Origin: Arcobacter sp. CECT 8985
GTDB lineage: Bacteria > Campylobacterota > Campylobacteria > Campylobacterales > Arcobacteraceae
Reading direction: 5' to 3'
Assembly: GCF_004116495.1 (NCBI RefSeq)
Contig: NZ_PDKC01000025.1
Span: 1 to 43,567 of the forward strand
DNA length: 43,567 nucleotides
The position numbers and the translations under genes were made by a program. The notes under the pieces are model-generated. The model had not been told where the DNA came from and did not search any database. It was given only the letters and a program-made list of their open reading frames with translations. Shown one piece after another: positions 6,090 through 31,069 of this stretch; the stretch's first letter is position 1; each line of letters starts with the position of its first letter.

Positions 6090-7022
6090 TTAACTTTTAA
6101 AAATTGAATTAACCGATTCATTATTATGAATTCTTTTTATAGTCTCTCCAATAATCTCAGCAGCAGTTAAAACTGTAATTTTATCACACTCTTTTTTAGC
6201 AGGGATTGTATCAGAAATTACAAGTTCGTCTAAAACGCCATTTTCAATTCTTTCATATGCAGGACCTGAAAGAACTCCATGTGTACAACATGCCATTACT
6301 GAAGTTGCACCTTTTTTCTTAAGTACTTCAGCAGCTTTAACTAAAGTTCCAGCAGTATCAACCATATCATCAACTAATATAACATCTTTTCCTGCAACAT
6401 CGCCAATAATATTCATAACTTCAGCTACATTTGCTTTTTCTCTTCTTTTATCAACAATTACTAAATCATAACCTAACTTATTTGCATAAGATCTTGCTCT
6501 TGCAACACCACCAATATCAGGACTTGCAATAATTGGATTTTTTAATTTTTTAGATTTAATATAATCAACGAACATAATTGAACCAAATAAGTTATCAACA
6601 GGAACATTAAAGAAACCTTGAATTTGAGCAGCGTGTAAATCAATTGTAATAACTCTATGGATACCAGCTTTTTCTAATAAGTCAGCAACTAATTTTGCAG
6701 AAATTGGAACTCTTGGAGCAGCTTTTCTATCTTGTCTTGCATATCCATAATATGGAATAACTGCAGAAATCGATTTTGCACTTGATCTTTTAAGTGCATC
6801 AATCATAATTAAAAGTTCCATAAGATTATCATTTGTTGGAGCACAAGTAGGTTGAATGATAAATACATCTTGACCTCTTACACTTTCTGTAACTTGTACA
6901 GAGATTTCTCCATCACTAAATTTATTAAGTGTAGCCTCTCCAATAGGCTCTTTTAAATATTCCCCGACTTTTTTTGCAAAATCAGGATTTGCAGAACCAC
7001 TAAAAAGTTTGAAACATGACAT
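6090..7022 (-). CDS. prs: Ribose-phosphate pyrophosphokinase
   Basis: This cytosolic enzyme makes PRPP from ribose 5-phosphate and ATP for purine, pyrimidine, histidine and NAD synthesis. It has 310 residues, the normal class I length. Visible motifs include the flexible catalytic stretch around YYGYARQDRK, the metal-binding IDLHAAQIQGFF, DIGGVARAR, and the PRPP-binding loop VDDMVDTAGT near residue 218. The start is ATG at 7022 with AAGG upstream. A TATAAT -10 lies at 7046-7051 on the minus strand, so it has its own promoter, divergent from the candidate small RNA. Confidence 0.97.
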   Translation of the reverse strand: MSCFKLFSGSANPDFAKKVGEYLKEPIGEATLNKFSDGEISVQVTESVRGQDVFIIQPTCAPTNDNLMELLIMIDALKRSSAKSISAVIPYYGYARQDRKAAPRVPISAKLVADLLEKAGIHRVITIDLHAAQIQGFFNVPVDNLFGSIMFVDYIKSKKLKNPIIASPDIGGVARARSYANKLGYDLVIVDKRREKANVAEVMNIIGDVAGKDVILVDDMVDTAGTLVKAAEVLKKKGATSVMACCTHGVLSGPAYERIENGVLDELVISDTIPAKKECDKITVLTAAEIIGETIKRIHNNESVNSIFKS

Positions 7023-7045
7023 TATTTTTTTTCCTTGTAATTTTT

Positions 7046-7051
7046 ATTATA
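7046..7051 (-). promoter_or_regulatory. -10 element of prs
   Basis: The minus strand reads ACTATAATAAA, a perfect TATAAT, 24 bases before the prs start. No -35 match is evident. Confidence 0.45.
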
Positions 7052-7173
7052 GTATTTATAATGCGATTTTATCTAAATACTTCTTATATTGAATTTATAT
7101 GTTATTAATAAAAAATATATAGTCTAAAAGTATAAAAAATATACATGCAAAATATTGAATAGGATTTATTAAA

Positions 7174-7182
7174 TGTTATACT
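7174..7182 (+). promoter_or_regulatory. Extended -10 promoter of the candidate small RNA
   Basis: TGTTATACT is a textbook extended -10 (TGnTATAcT). There is no open reading frame of useful length downstream for 250 bases, so it most likely drives an untranslated RNA starting near 7189. Confidence 0.5.
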
Positions 7183-7188
7183 TTAATT

Positions 7189-7430
7189 GTTCTTCTAAAG
7201 GAAAGAAGACTAAAGGGAAATTTTTTAAGCGCGAGTCCGTTATTTTTATTACATACCTTGTAATTTTATGAGTTATTGGATAAAAAAGTTTTAGATATTT
7301 TTCGCTCATTTTTCTAAAACTTTTTAATATCCTTTATGTAACTCTTTGTGATGACAGTCATGTTTGACTTCATATATACTTTCTAGTGTAAAAATCTAAG
7401 AGAGATTCCTCCTCCTCTCTTAGTATTTTT
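7189..7430 (+). ncRNA. Candidate structured small RNA with C/U-rich terminator loop
   Basis: This fills the 412-base gap between prs and mnmA. It follows an extended -10 and ends in a strong hairpin plus TATTTTT. The 5' end can form a small hairpin, TCTTCT/AGAAGA (7191-7209), with an AAAGGAA loop. The centre forms a long rod: GAGTTA (7269-7274) pairs with TAACTC (7339-7344), GGATA with TATCC, and AAAAAGTTTTAGA (7282-7294) with TCTAAAACTTTTT (7312-7324). A perfect dyad ATGAC-A-GTCAT lies at 7351-7361. The terminator loop is ATTCCTCCTC. I do not recognise it as tmRNA, SRP RNA or RNase P RNA; a divergent 6S RNA is possible. It could also be only a bidirectional terminator plus spacer. Confidence 0.45.
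7396..7423. terminator. Bidirectional terminator between candidate small RNA and mnmA
   Basis: CTAAGAGAG (7396-7404) and CTCTCTTAG (7415-7423) form a perfect 9-bp stem with a ten-base C/U-rich loop. On the minus strand it is followed by ATTTTT, ending the mnmA gene whose stop is at 7435. On the plus strand it is followed by TATTTTT, ending the candidate small RNA. Confidence 0.8.
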
Positions 7431-7434
7431 ATAA

Positions 7435-8469
7435 TTATTTAGATGTATTCTCTATCCAACCACTTCCAATAACTTTTTGTTTATCATAAAATACAGCAAG
7501 TTGACCAGCTGCTACACCAAATGCTGGCTCTTTTAATTTTATTATTGCTTTGTTATTTTTAATATTCACTTCGCAAGGTGTTGTTACACTTCTATATCTT
7601 AGTTTTACTCCACAATTAAAAGTAGTTTCATCAATATACATATTTAAATTATTTGCTATTACATTATTAACTTCAAGTGCTTGTTTTTTCCCAACTACAA
7701 TTGTATTATCTTTAGGGTTTAATTTTGTAACAAAGTGAGGTTCATGTGCTCCATTTACTGTAAATCCTCTTCTTTTACCAATTGTGTAGTGCATATAACC
7801 TTTATGTTTACCAACTATATTTCCATTTTCATCAAGAACATTTCCAGGAATATCAATATTTGCATGACGTTTCACAACATCAGTATAAACTGTTTCAACA
7901 AAGCAAATTTCTTGTGACTCACTTTTTTCTGTAATTTTTTTATATGCAACATCAAGTTTAGCACCAAATTTGATGATATCTTCTTTTTTGTAAGTACTTA
8001 AAGGGAACATCATATATGGTAATGCTTCTTTTTCTACTTGAGATAAGAAATAACTTTGATCTTTTGTTTTGTCATCAGCTTCATAGAAAAATTTTCCATC
8101 TGTTTTGGCATAATGACCTGTTGCCAAATATGAAGCTCCATGCTCTTTTGCAAATTTAAGCATTGCACCAAATTTTATTTGTCTATTACATTTAACACAT
8201 GGATTTGGAGTTGTTCCTTGTAAGTATGAATCTACAAAATAATCATAAACTTCTTGTGTAAACTTATCAGCTAAATCTAGAATGTGATATTTTATTCCAA
8301 GATATTTTGCAACATCTTCAATATATCCTAAATTTTTCTCGTGATAACCATCTGTTCTATTATGAAGTTTTAAGTAAACACCTTCTACTTCATATCCTTC
8401 TTTTTGTAGCATATATGCAGTAACTGATGAATCAATTCCGCCACTCATTCCAACCATTACTTTTTTCAT
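7435..8469 (-). CDS. mnmA: tRNA-specific 2-thiouridylase, paralog 1
   Basis: The enzyme adds sulfur to U34 of the tRNAs for Lys, Glu and Gln, using ATP and a persulfide. It has 344 residues. The PP-loop SGGIDSS is at residues 9-15. The catalytic cysteines are C94 in TPNPCVKCNRQIKF and C189 in SQEICF, and an extra cysteine (C91) makes a CxxC, as I recall from Campylobacter MnmA proteins. ATGHYAKTDG and DQSYFLSQV are also family motifs. It is clearly diverged from paralog 2 at 8672-9769. The start ATG has AAAGGT upstream. Two of its substrate tRNAs (Lys and Glu) are encoded twice at 30380-31069. Confidence 0.93.
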   Translation of the reverse strand: MKKVMVGMSGGIDSSVTAYMLQKEGYEVEGVYLKLHNRTDGYHEKNLGYIEDVAKYLGIKYHILDLADKFTQEVYDYFVDSYLQGTTPNPCVKCNRQIKFGAMLKFAKEHGASYLATGHYAKTDGKFFYEADDKTKDQSYFLSQVEKEALPYMMFPLSTYKKEDIIKFGAKLDVAYKKITEKSESQEICFVETVYTDVVKRHANIDIPGNVLDENGNIVGKHKGYMHYTIGKRRGFTVNGAHEPHFVTKLNPKDNTIVVGKKQALEVNNVIANNLNMYIDETTFNCGVKLRYRSVTTPCEVNIKNNKAIIKLKEPAFGVAAGQLAVFYDKQKVIGSGWIENTSK

Positions 8470-8512
8470 ATTTTACCTTTAAAAGTCTCTTTATAGAAAC
8501 TATAAATTTAAT

Positions 8513-8617
8513 AAAGGAATAATCACTGATTCTCTATTGCCCAATTTAATAAGATATTTAATTTTTGGTTTTAGACGTATCTTGAAAGGATCGCTTTCTT
8601 CCATATTTTAGTTTTAA
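8513..8617 (-). pseudogene. Decayed fragment of a second folK
   Basis: Two blocks match the intact folK at 9803-10318 in the same order and strand. Block 1 (8513-8545) matches 9855-9888 at 33 of 34 positions with one base missing; it covers the WANRESVI region. Block 2 (8579-8602) matches 9971-9994 at 24 of 24; it covers GRKRSFQD. Between them the fragment has 33 bases where folK has 82, and those bases do not align well. The missing base and the internal loss break the frame, so no protein is made. It lies directly upstream of mnmA paralog 1, as folK lies directly upstream of paralog 2. Confidence 0.8.
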
Positions 8618-8649
8618 TCTCTACAATTATTTAAATAGTTGTAGAGATT
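8616..8649. repeat. Near-perfect 34-base inverted repeat
   Basis: AATCTCTACAATTATTT and AAATAGTTGTAGAGATT are complementary apart from one position that still allows a G-U pair, giving up to 17 bp. It lies just past the stop of mnmA paralog 2 and may stop or stabilise its mRNA, but no T-run follows on either strand. Confidence 0.6.
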
Positions 8650-8671
8650 ATAAAAGCGCGATTATAGCATA

Positions 8672-9769
8672 TTAATTGTAATTACTAATAAATCCACCAC
8701 CTAAGCAATAATTACCATCATATAAAACTAGACTTTGTCCTAAAGTTACAGCTCTTTGAGGTTTATCAAATTCTACTATTACTTTATCTTCATTTATTTC
8801 AACTACTGTACAAGCTTGCTTTTGTTGACGATAACGAATTTGTGCCATTAGTTTATCTCCAACTTTAGCAGGCTCTTCAAGTACCCAGTGCATATGACTA
8901 GCTTCTACATTTTTACTCATAAGTAAAGGATGGTTTGTATCTTGAACAACTGTTAAAGTATTATCTTCAATATTCTTTTTAGCAGCATACCATGATTTGT
9001 GAGTGTTATTTTCACCTTCAAGCCCTTTGATCCCACCAAGACCAATACCTTTTCTTTGCCCTAATGTGTAGCAAATAAGTCCTTTGTGTTTTCCTAAAAC
9101 TTTTCCATTTTCATCTATAATATCACCAGGAATCGCTTTTAAATGCTGTGTAATAAATTCATCAAATCTTTGGTTGCCAATAAAACAAATTCCAGTACTA
9201 TCTTTTTTATCACTTACTGGTAGATTATGTTTTCTTGCTATTTCTCTTACTTCTTTTTTAGTTAAATCACCAAGAGGAAACATAGATTGAGATAATTGTT
9301 CACTTGATAATGCATGTAAAAAATAACTTTGGTCTTTTGTATTATCTTTTGGAGTATCTAAAACATAATGGTCGTGATATTTAGCTATTTTTGCATAGTG
9401 TCCAGTAGCAATGAAATCTGCACCCATTTTTTTAGCTTCATTTAAAAATACATTAAATTTAATTTCACGATTACATAAAATATCTGGATTTGGAGTAAGT
9501 CCTTTTTTTAAACCTTCTAAGAATACATCAAATACTTTAGTTCTATACTCTTCAACAAAGTCTTTACCTTTTACTTCAATTCCAATTAATTCACCTACTT
9601 TTTTAGCATCTTCAAATTCTATACGATTAGGGCATTGGCTACCTTTAATTCCATATTCCCAATTTCTCATAAATAGGCCTTGTACTTCATAGCCTTGTTC
9701 TTTTAATAATAATGCAGTAACTGAAGAATCAACACCCCCAGACATACCTACAACTACTTTTTTTTTCAT
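8672..9769 (-). CDS. mnmA: tRNA-specific 2-thiouridylase, paralog 2
   Basis: A second MnmA with 365 residues, of the enterobacterial type in its motifs. The PP-loop SGGVDSS is at residues 10-16. The catalytic cysteines are C99 in TPNPDILCNREIKF and C195 in STGICFIG. GLGGIKGLEG and the C-terminal beta-barrel stretch with PQRAVTLGQSLVLYDG are present. All active-site residues are kept, so both paralogs look functional. Paralog 1 has TPNPCxxC where this one has TPNPDxxC, which suggests different origins rather than a recent duplication. It follows folK by 33 bases and is probably co-transcribed with it. AGAAGGT precedes the ATG. Confidence 0.95.
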   Translation of the reverse strand: MKKKVVVGMSGGVDSSVTALLLKEQGYEVQGLFMRNWEYGIKGSQCPNRIEFEDAKKVGELIGIEVKGKDFVEEYRTKVFDVFLEGLKKGLTPNPDILCNREIKFNVFLNEAKKMGADFIATGHYAKIAKYHDHYVLDTPKDNTKDQSYFLHALSSEQLSQSMFPLGDLTKKEVREIARKHNLPVSDKKDSTGICFIGNQRFDEFITQHLKAIPGDIIDENGKVLGKHKGLICYTLGQRKGIGLGGIKGLEGENNTHKSWYAAKKNIEDNTLTVVQDTNHPLLMSKNVEASHMHWVLEEPAKVGDKLMAQIRYRQQKQACTVVEINEDKVIVEFDKPQRAVTLGQSLVLYDGNYCLGGGFISNYN

Positions 9770-9802
9770 TATGTACCTTCTTTAAAATAATTGAACATTA
9801 TT

Positions 9803-10318
9803 TTATTTATTTATAACTATGTTCTTTTTTGTTTTGTAATTTTTTATATATTTTAAAGGAATAATCACTGATTCTCTATTTGCCCAATCTTTGTGAGGAA
9901 TAATAAGTTTTTGGGTATTAATTTTTTTATTATCAAAGAAAATAATATCAATATCCAAGGTTCTAGGCGCATCTTGAAAGGATCGCTTTCTTCCCAATCT
10001 ATTTTCTAATCTTTGCATATTTTTCAAAAAATCATTTGGCGATAGATTAGATTTAATCACAATTATACCATTTAAAAAGTCATTTTGATTTAAAAAACCA
10101 AATGGAGGATTTAAAAGTAGGGGAGATGTCATAAGTATATCAAATCTTAGATCTTCTTTTAAATATAAGAATAACTTATCAAATCTGCTTTTAACATTTC
10201 CTATATTTCCCCCAATACCAATAGTAACAAGATATTTTTTGTTTGAATTAATTTTTGAAGTGTATGGAAAATTACTTGTAAAAAAAAGTGTTAATTTATC
10301 ATCTAATTTTTTTAGCAT
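9803..10318 (-). CDS. folK: 2-amino-4-hydroxy-6-hydroxymethyldihydropteridine pyrophosphokinase (HPPK)
   Basis: This enzyme transfers pyrophosphate from ATP to the pterin in folate synthesis. An ORF is open to 10354, but I place the start at 10318, where AGGAG lies four bases before the ATG; this gives 171 residues. Motifs are the N-terminal GIGGNIGN, NPPFGFLNQNDFLNGI, LGRKRSFQDAPRTLDIDI with the metal-binding DID pair, and IPHKDWANRESVIIPL. The first 30 residues before the HPPK core are an extension of unknown role. In C. jejuni and H. pylori, as I recall, folK lies beside flhF and near aroQ; here the flagellar genes are absent and mnmA follows. Confidence 0.92.
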   Translation of the reverse strand: MLKKLDDKLTLFFTSNFPYTSKINSNKKYLVTIGIGGNIGNVKSRFDKLFLYLKEDLRFDILMTSPLLLNPPFGFLNQNDFLNGIIVIKSNLSPNDFLKNMQRLENRLGRKRSFQDAPRTLDIDIIFFDNKKINTQKLIIPHKDWANRESVIIPLKYIKNYKTKKNIVINK

Positions 10319-10374
10319 TTTGCTCCTAAATATAAAATTGAGTAAAAAAGTCAAGTTTAAAAAAAACTTAACTT

Positions 10375-11400
10375 TTATAAAATTACTGCTTTTCCATTTA
10401 TCATTGCAACTGTATCTTCAATTCTAATTCCAAATTCATTTGGAAGATAAATACCTGGTTCAATTGTAAAAACCATATTATCTTCAATTATTACATCAGA
10501 TTTAGCACTTATAAAAGGAAATTCATGGATATCCAACCCAACCCCATGACCTGTACTATGCACAAAATATTTGCCATAACCTGCTTTTGTAATAATATCT
10601 CTTGTAAGAGCATCAATTTGTGATGCTTTCATTCCTGAACGTGCATTATTAATCGCATTAAGTTGAGCTTTATAAACTAAATCATAAATTTTTTGATGTT
10701 TTTTGTTTTTAAATTTTTGCTCTCTTTTAAAAGAGAATTTTTCAAAGTTTACATTAGAAGTACAAGTTCTATCAGAACAATATCTTTTATATTTTATTCC
10801 CGCATCAACTAAAAGTAAATCATTTAATTTTAGTTTTTTCTTTGTTGGTAAAGCATGAGGCTTTGCAGCATTTTCATTTATTGCCACAATTGGTTCAAAA
10901 CTTAAGTTATATTTTCCCACTTGACTCATCTTTTCAACTGCTTTAAAATATAAAAGTTGTTCTTTTTGATTAAATCCATTTTTTCTTATATATTTGGCTA
11001 AAGATTTAAAACCATCTCTTCCTAATTTTGCAGCTTTACTTAATATTGCAATTTCATCATCTGTTTTGATAATTCTTTTTTGTTTTGAAAAATTTAGTTT
11101 TTCAATAAAATCAATATCTAAGTCTTCGATTAGTTTTTTATATGCATGGTATGTAAAATCACTTGGATCAAAAGTTAGTTTTTTTATTTTACTATCTTTT
11201 AAAAGTTCTTTTGTAGTTTTTATCAAATCACTTGATTCTATGATAGAACAACTCTTTGCATACTCTTTTGCTTCTAAAACATATCTAGCATCCGTAAGAA
11301 AAAAGTTCTCACTTCCTAACTTGATAAATATCACATTATCACAAGAAAATCCACATTCATAATAGATTGCATTTTCATTTTGTAGTATATAGTTTTCCAT
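10375..11400 (-). CDS. M24-family aminopeptidase (Xaa-Pro peptidase type)
   Basis: A cytosolic two-metal peptidase of 341 residues that probably cleaves N-terminal residues before proline. The creatinase-like N-terminal domain covers about residues 1-115, and the pita-bread catalytic domain follows. All metal ligands are visible: Asp in LLVDAGIKY, Asp in CSDRTCT, His in [12 protein letters not shown], Glu in FTIEPGIYL and Glu in IRIEDTV. It stops 57 bases before the folK start, so the two may share an mRNA. H. pylori has a similar gene between folK and aroQ, as I recall, which supports orthology. It could also be called pepP or pepQ; substrate preference is not readable. Confidence 0.88.
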
Positions 11401-30379: not shown

Positions 30380-30456
30380 TGGCGCGGTTGACGAGACTCG
30401 AACTCGCGACCTCCTGCGTGACAGGCAGGCATTCTAACCAACTAAACTACAACCGC
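30380..30456 (-). tRNA. tRNA-Asp (GTC), copy 1
   Basis: The acceptor stem GCGGTTG/CAACCGC is intact, the discriminator is G and CCA is encoded. The anticodon loop CTGTCAC gives GTC. Last gene of the second tRNA block in transcription order. The gene body is identical to the copy 354 bases away. Confidence 0.97.
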
Positions 30457-30462
30457 ACATAA

Positions 30463-30538
30463 TGGTGGTCGATAGTGGACTCGAACCACTGGCATCTACC
30501 TTGTAAGGGTAGCGCTCTACCAACTGAGCTAATCGACC
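30463..30538 (-). tRNA. tRNA-Val (TAC), copy 1
   Basis: Acceptor stem GGTCGAT/ATCGACC, discriminator A, encoded CCA. Stem CTACC/GGTAG closes the loop CTTACAA with anticodon TAC. Confidence 0.97.
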
Positions 30539-30555
30539 GAAATAAGAATTAAAAT

Positions 30556-30630
30556 TGGTGACCCCTAGGAGACTCGAACTCCTGTGATTGGGATGAAAAT
30601 CCATGATCCTAACCGCTAGATGAAGGGGCC
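30556..30630 (-). tRNA. tRNA-Glu (TTC), copy 1, with altered anticodon stem
   Basis: Acceptor stem GGCCCCT/AGGGGTC and encoded CCA are intact, with anticodon TTC in loop TTTTCAT. Relative to copy 2, two stem bases differ: the anticodon stem is ATGGA/CCCAA instead of TTGGA/TCCAA. Positions 27-43 become A-A and 31-39 become A-C, leaving three pairs. It may be a decaying copy or work poorly. Confidence 0.9.
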
Positions 30631-30639
30631 AAAAAAAAA

Positions 30640-30715
30640 TGGTGACCCGTGAAGGATTCGAACCTTCGGCCACCTCCTTAAAAGGGAGATGCTCTACCAG
30701 CTGAGCTAACGGGTC
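30640..30715 (-). tRNA. tRNA-Lys (TTT), copy 1
   Basis: Acceptor stem GACCCGT/ACGGGTC, discriminator A, encoded CCA. Stem TCTCC/GGAGG and loop CTTTTAA give anticodon TTT. First gene of the second block. Confidence 0.97.
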
Positions 30716-30733
30716 AAACAATAATAAAAATAG

Positions 30734-30810
30734 TGGCGCGGTTGACGAGACTCGAACTCGCGACCTCCTGCGTGACAGGCAGGCATTCTAACCAACTAAA
30801 CTACAACCGC
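30734..30810 (-). tRNA. tRNA-Asp (GTC), copy 2
   Basis: Same sequence as copy 1, offset by exactly 354 bases. Last gene of the first block in transcription order. Confidence 0.97.
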
Positions 30811-30816
30811 ACATAA

Positions 30817-30892
30817 TGGTGGTCGATAGTGGACTCGAACCACTGGCATCTACCTTGTAAGGGTAGCGCTCTACCAACTGAGCTAATCGACC
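30817..30892 (-). tRNA. tRNA-Val (TAC), copy 2
   Basis: Same sequence as copy 1, offset by 354 bases. Confidence 0.97.
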
Positions 30893-30909
30893 GAAATAAT
30901 AATTAAAAA

Positions 30910-30984
30910 TGGTGACCCCTAGGAGACTCGAACTCCTGTGATTGGAATGAAAATCCAAGATCCTAACCGCTAGATGAAGGGGCC
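30910..30984 (-). tRNA. tRNA-Glu (TTC), copy 2 (canonical)
   Basis: The anticodon stem TTGGA/TCCAA is fully paired around loop TTTTCAT. This is the normal form; copy 1 differs from it at two bases. Confidence 0.97.
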
Positions 30985-30993
30985 AAAAAAAAA

Positions 30994-31069
30994 TGGTGAC
31001 CCGTGAAGGATTCGAACCTTCGGCCACCTCCTTAAAAGGGAGATGCTCTACCAGCTGAGCTAACGGGTC
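30994..31069 (-). tRNA. tRNA-Lys (TTT), copy 2
   Basis: Same sequence as copy 1. It is the first gene of the whole tRNA operon, starting about 23 bases after the -10 of a consensus promoter. Confidence 0.97.

Follow-up and report, generated by a model that had tools for sequence, protein, structure and literature searches.

A folK remnant between two mnmA genes of Arcobacteraceae probably preserves the promoter and a control element, likely RNA, of the native mnmA

The operator of Escherichia coli thrS is an autoregulatory element of the mRNA that mimics an anticodon. Mimics of this kind have been described in the mRNAs of aminoacyl-tRNA synthetases, as in that of yeast HisRS (PMC6542539). 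In Campylobacter jejuni and Helicobacter pylori, the -10 box reads gnTAnaAT and internal promoters are common, while the 5' leaders of C. jejuni average 30.6 nt (PMC3847290). We describe here a locus of Arcobacter sp. CECT 8985 that resembles each of these systems in part; throughout, the window denotes the whole stretch of DNA analysed, 43,567 nucleotides in length.

As with the internal sigma-70 promoters of Campylobacterota (PMC3847290), a gnTAnaAT box lies inside the upstream gene; in this case, however, promoter and conserved leader outlast the decay of the host copy to a remnant, and the predicted mnmA leader greatly exceeds the C. jejuni average in length. With riboswitches and other cis-regulatory 5' leaders the locus has in common a long leader, a conserved core, a supported 5' hairpin and complementarity to the ribosome-binding site, but it differs from them in having no Rfam covariance-model match (positions 7000 to 11000 of the window, E up to 1), no intrinsic terminator (positions 8400 to 10400), no known ligand and a core that shows no convincing fold. 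The likeness to the thrS operator and to the yeast HisRS mRNA (PMC6542539) consists of a location within, or ahead of, the mRNA of an enzyme that acts on tRNA and of an anticodon-like loop, whereas here the hairpin probability is low, covariation is slight, and promoter and leader lie within the coding sequence of another gene. A literature search for an mnmA leader returned nothing relevant.

Our favored reading, to which we assign a probability of about 0.75, is that insertion of a foreign mnmA gene (mnmA_A) left behind a remnant of folK, and that this remnant still supplies the native gene (mnmA_B) with a promoter and with a control element that probably acts as RNA. The locus would then constitute a natural experiment, in which the decay of a non-coding gene copy reveals the bases that have a second, regulatory role, the same bases being frozen at synonymous sites of the intact folK. 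It would also suggest that a central tRNA-modification enzyme has a control element not previously described, and would show how recombination in a neighboring gene can bring in a foreign paralog with the control region of the native gene left intact.

Gene order and origin of the remnant

The genes of the locus are all encoded on the minus strand: folK comes first, followed by mnmA_A, a 202-base spacer that contains the folK remnant, and mnmA_B. The features, in window coordinates, are as follows:

9803 to 10354, minus strand: functional folK (HPPK; TIGR01498, E 1.4e-33; PF01288)
10062 to 10070, minus strand: predicted extended -10 promoter TGGTATAAT in folK, for mnmA_A (motif conservation)
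9964 to 9994, minus strand: block 1 in functional folK (near-invariant, synonymous sites included)
9854 to 9888, minus strand: block 2 in functional folK (conservation in folK)
8672 to 9769, minus strand: mnmA_A, proteobacterial type, horizontally acquired (NF001138/TIGR00420 above cut-off; tree)
8661 to 8669, minus strand: predicted retained promoter TGCTATAAT of mnmA_B, directly behind mnmA_A (motif in 17 of 19 remnants)
8615 to 8650, minus strand: leader hairpin P0, TAATCTCTACAA...TTGTAGAGATTA (covariation across 14 remnants)
8572 to 8602, minus strand: block 1 of the folK remnant (93% mean pairwise identity, 18 non-coding remnants)
8512 to 8545, minus strand: block 2 of the folK remnant (84% mean pairwise identity, 18 non-coding remnants)
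8476 to 8480, minus strand: AAAGG, ribosome-binding site of mnmA_B (block 2 ends in the complementary CCUUU)
7435 to 8469, minus strand: mnmA_B, native campylobacterotal copy (NF001138/TIGR00420 above cut-off; tree)

Both mnmA products are full-length and score above the NF001138 cut-off of 284 bits (376 and 437), identifying each as MnmA (tRNA 2-thiouridine synthase). The original prediction had called the paralogs very different, and their identity is indeed only 36%. Its description of the remnant was likewise borne out on re-measurement: positions 8513 to 8545 match 9855 to 9888 of folK at 33/34 with one deleted base, positions 8579 to 8602 equal 9971 to 9994 exactly (24/24), and the stretch between the two matches has 33 bases in the remnant as against 82 in folK. 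Local alignment of the whole spacer to the window's own folK gave a score of 127, compared with a maximum of 58 in 60 shuffles (z 14.8). The feature spans approximately 8467 to 8669, longer than the 8513 to 8617 originally noted, with promoter and hairpin upstream of the blocks. Remnants range in size from 345 nt of recognizable folK (genomes G088 and G089) down to that of the window, which is reduced to two short blocks. Behind mnmA_B, at 7140 to 7420, lies a long intergenic stretch with a strong inverted repeat (AAAAAGTTTTAGA ... TCTAAAACTTTTT), for which Rfam gave no match at E up to 1.

One explanation originally offered for the locus was the entry of a foreign folK-mnmA segment by recombination within folK, a proposal now supported by the MnmA phylogeny, by the patchy distribution of mnmA_A and by a mosaic folK. 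In a tree of 67 MnmA proteins, MnmA_A (together with that of G110, one further Campylobacterota genome) falls inside the proteobacterial set and MnmA_B inside Campylobacterota, the two standing on opposite sides of strongly supported branches; the paralogs are not an in-genus duplication. The nearest relatives of MnmA_A outside Campylobacterota, at about 50% identity, are mostly gamma- and betaproteobacterial proteins, and a search of 299 genomes of the order found, besides the main set, only G110 (63%) and G050 (49%) reaching E 1e-70. Presence of mnmA_A requires 14 changes on the MnmA_B tree. In genome G006 (L027), the 5' part of folK is nearest to its own genus (0.912), the 3' part to another genus (G072, 0.959), and the remnant again to its own genus (0.957), which is the trace expected if a donor segment comprising a folK 3' end and mnmA_A recombined within the folK of the recipient, whose native 3' end remained. 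The junction marks where the mnmA_A segment entered. Insertion is seen directly in G006 only. For the window we infer a like event, in which a folK 3' end together with an mnmA_A of proteobacterial type recombined into folK and the native folK 3' end came to stand before the native mnmA_B.

Conservation of the blocks and of the promoter

Conservation within the remnants is concentrated in two places. Across 18 remnants, mean pairwise identity (gaps counted) is 0.93 in block 1 and 0.84 in block 2, as opposed to 0.41 upstream, 0.36 in the middle and 0.31 downstream; for the five remnants of the window's genus, block 1 stands at 0.94 against 0.47 upstream and 0.56 in the middle. The functional folK genes of 71 genomes exhibit the same pattern at synonymous sites, where degeneracy-scaled entropy drops from 0.41 outside the blocks to 0.20 within them (Mann-Whitney p 1.9e-4, a value that is only indicative because the genomes are related), and codons such as AAG, TCC and GCG, which are unusual in a genome of such high AT content, hardly vary in the folK blocks. 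Exchange of folK 3' ends between genera could account for part of the conservation in folK, yet the stretch between the blocks varies freely. By these alignments, the blocks are under selection as DNA or RNA. A conserved leader peptide in the remnant was considered and rejected on inspection of the sequences: block spacing differs by non-multiples of three, and the remnants have no start codon in common.

The near-perfect blocks had originally been taken to hint at either gene conversion or a retained function. The latter gains support from the conservation of non-coding copies and from the synonymous sites of folK; the former, in which exchange between folK and remnant would hold the blocks identical, accounts for their high identity within the window but is refuted as the general cause, since a remnant resembles the folK of its own genome no more than that of others (for block 1, a median fraction of 0.73 of the other genomes' folK genes are as close or closer, and for block 2 the median is 0.61). 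Remnants moreover share changes never seen in folK, such as an A at position 25 in 12/19 remnants and 0/71 folK genes. Nor do we give much more than a nominal chance to a recent partial duplication whose remnant is too young to have decayed. One remnant, that of G035, is 98% identical to its own folK, as a young copy would be, but such a copy should diverge equally inside and outside the blocks, which is contradicted by the values for the window's genus (upstream and middle 47% and 56%, block 1 94%, five remnants). A recent origin is also opposed by the 19% difference between the MnmA_B proteins of G000 and G001. The patchiness of mnmA_A, the direct repeats on both of its sides and the crossover inside the folK of G006 could also be accommodated if the blocks were recombination or attachment sites, and mnmA_A a cassette that comes and goes. 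We judge this very unlikely: homologous recombination explains the repeats with no special site, no integrase gene was noticed among the open reading frames between 4000 and 14000, the blocks are conserved in folK-mnmA_B genomes that lack mnmA_A, and they always precede an mnmA gene, none having been found elsewhere.

Upstream of block 1, the motif TGnTATAAT occurs in 17 of 19 remnants (it is absent from those of G035 and G099). Of the 71 folK genes that bear the element, 70 have it too, at exactly -76 from the block. The folK codons within it are invariant (GGT in 62/62, ATA in 63/63). Its n base is G in folK and any base in the remnants, a freedom that fits a promoter and not codons, and the motif agrees with the gnTAnaAT -10 box of Campylobacterota sigma-70. 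The case for a promoter rests on this conservation, because a general promoter scan yielded nothing that stood out against shuffles.

These observations can be assembled into an account in which the promoter and long 5' leader of mnmA evolved inside folK, so that the 3' half of folK in Arcobacteraceae would double as the promoter and leader of the gene that follows. In the window, the 3' half of folK would overlap the promoter and leader element of mnmA_A; more generally, the functional folK would carry the control region for mnmA_A, or for mnmA_B where mnmA_A is absent. Freed from coding, the remnant would have decayed except for what mnmA_B needs, namely the TGnTATAAT promoter, usually the 5' hairpin, and the two invariant blocks, of about 31 and 34 nt, that closely precede the ribosome-binding site. 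The region is presumably transcribed as a leader, the blocks likely act as RNA, and they may tune mnmA translation, with the CCUUU of block 2 perhaps pairing alternately with the ribosome-binding site and with GGAA in block 1.

Structure of the predicted leader and possible ligands

Hairpin P0, which lies between promoter and block 1, can form in most remnants, with z at or below -1.9 in 13 of the 17 measured and a lowest value of -7.0, and is weak or absent in several (e.g. G003, G035, G088). Among 14 remnants chosen for an alignable P0 region, a result that concerns the hairpin and not the core, covariation was 0.163 compared with 0.091 in shuffles (0/500 as high), and four pairs had changed on both sides. 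The core is not unusually stable (mean z -0.8), its blocks are too invariant for covariation, and a long duplex between block 1 and block 2 did not clearly exceed shuffles. In many remnants two pairings are the most probable, one of GCC in block 1 with GGC in block 2, the other of CCUUU in block 2 with the ribosome-binding site. The probability of the second reaches 0.5 or more in 13 of the 19 remnants, but the motif is short and would be complementary to any ribosome-binding site of this kind.

The lack of a clear RNA fold in the core, together with a short palindrome, AATCA-G-TGATT, in block 2 of the window, would suit a double-stranded DNA site instead, such as a transcription factor operator downstream of the promoter. 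We regard an operator as unlikely, however, given two long non-palindromic blocks whose spacing varies from about 18 to 76 nt within the predicted transcript, a palindrome that is broken in several remnants, and an adjoining hairpin, P0, that covaries as RNA.

If the blocks do act as RNA, as we favor, one specific version is that the core mimics an anticodon arm (loop CUUUCAA) and is bound by MnmA, thereby autoregulating tRNA thiolation, with native and foreign MnmA reading the same folK-borne regulatory fossil. It is possible to draw block 1 as a hairpin with the loop CUUUCAA; this loop corresponds to a U33-U34-U35-C36-A37 anticodon loop and resembles loops modified by MnmA (CUUUUAA in tRNA-Lys of the window; anticodon UUC in tRNA-Glu). 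All 19 remnants and 69 of the 71 folK copies have loop bases 33 to 37, UUUCA, intact; the pairing probability of the hairpin is mostly below 0.2, and its covariation is not clearly above shuffles. We consider the mimic a long shot. Elsewhere in the window, at 30380 to 31069, a cluster of four tRNA genes (Asp, Val, Glu, Lys) lies in tandem repeat, of which Glu and Lys are MnmA substrates.

Distribution of the element

Comparison of the locus in 104 genomes of the family Arcobacteraceae revealed three main arrangements: folK-mnmA_B; folK-mnmA_A-folK remnant-mnmA_B; and folK-mnmA_A-mnmA_B with a short spacer, mostly of 1 to 22 bases. The spacers of relatives do carry folK similarity, in keeping with the original reading of the window. 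A covariance model built from 18 remnants found full-strength matches in these 104 genomes only at folK and remnant sites, with weaker matches in folK genes that lack the element. Across 299 genomes of the order, an exact 20-base pattern is present only in Arcobacteraceae and only at folK or remnant positions, its reversed control matching nowhere; no element was found before proteobacterial mnmA genes or before those of other families in the order. Two weak matches outside the family (L206, L193) were set aside as folK protein homology.

Five fairly close genomes (G004, G046, G047, G059, G085) have folK directly before mnmA_B with the promoter motif present and the blocks absent, so mnmA_B does not need the element in every genome; in seven more distant genomes, folK has neither promoter motif nor blocks. 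In three of the five, G004 (L016), G059 (L075) and G085 (L074), folK retains an internal TGGTATAAT and both blocks are missing, and congeners possess the blocks. A further observation concerns genomes G082 (L047), G087 (L068), G086 (L067), G092 (L035) and G097 (L054), in which mnmA_A is present and mnmA_B is either not found or a fragment, suggesting that the foreign MnmA_A can replace the native enzyme.
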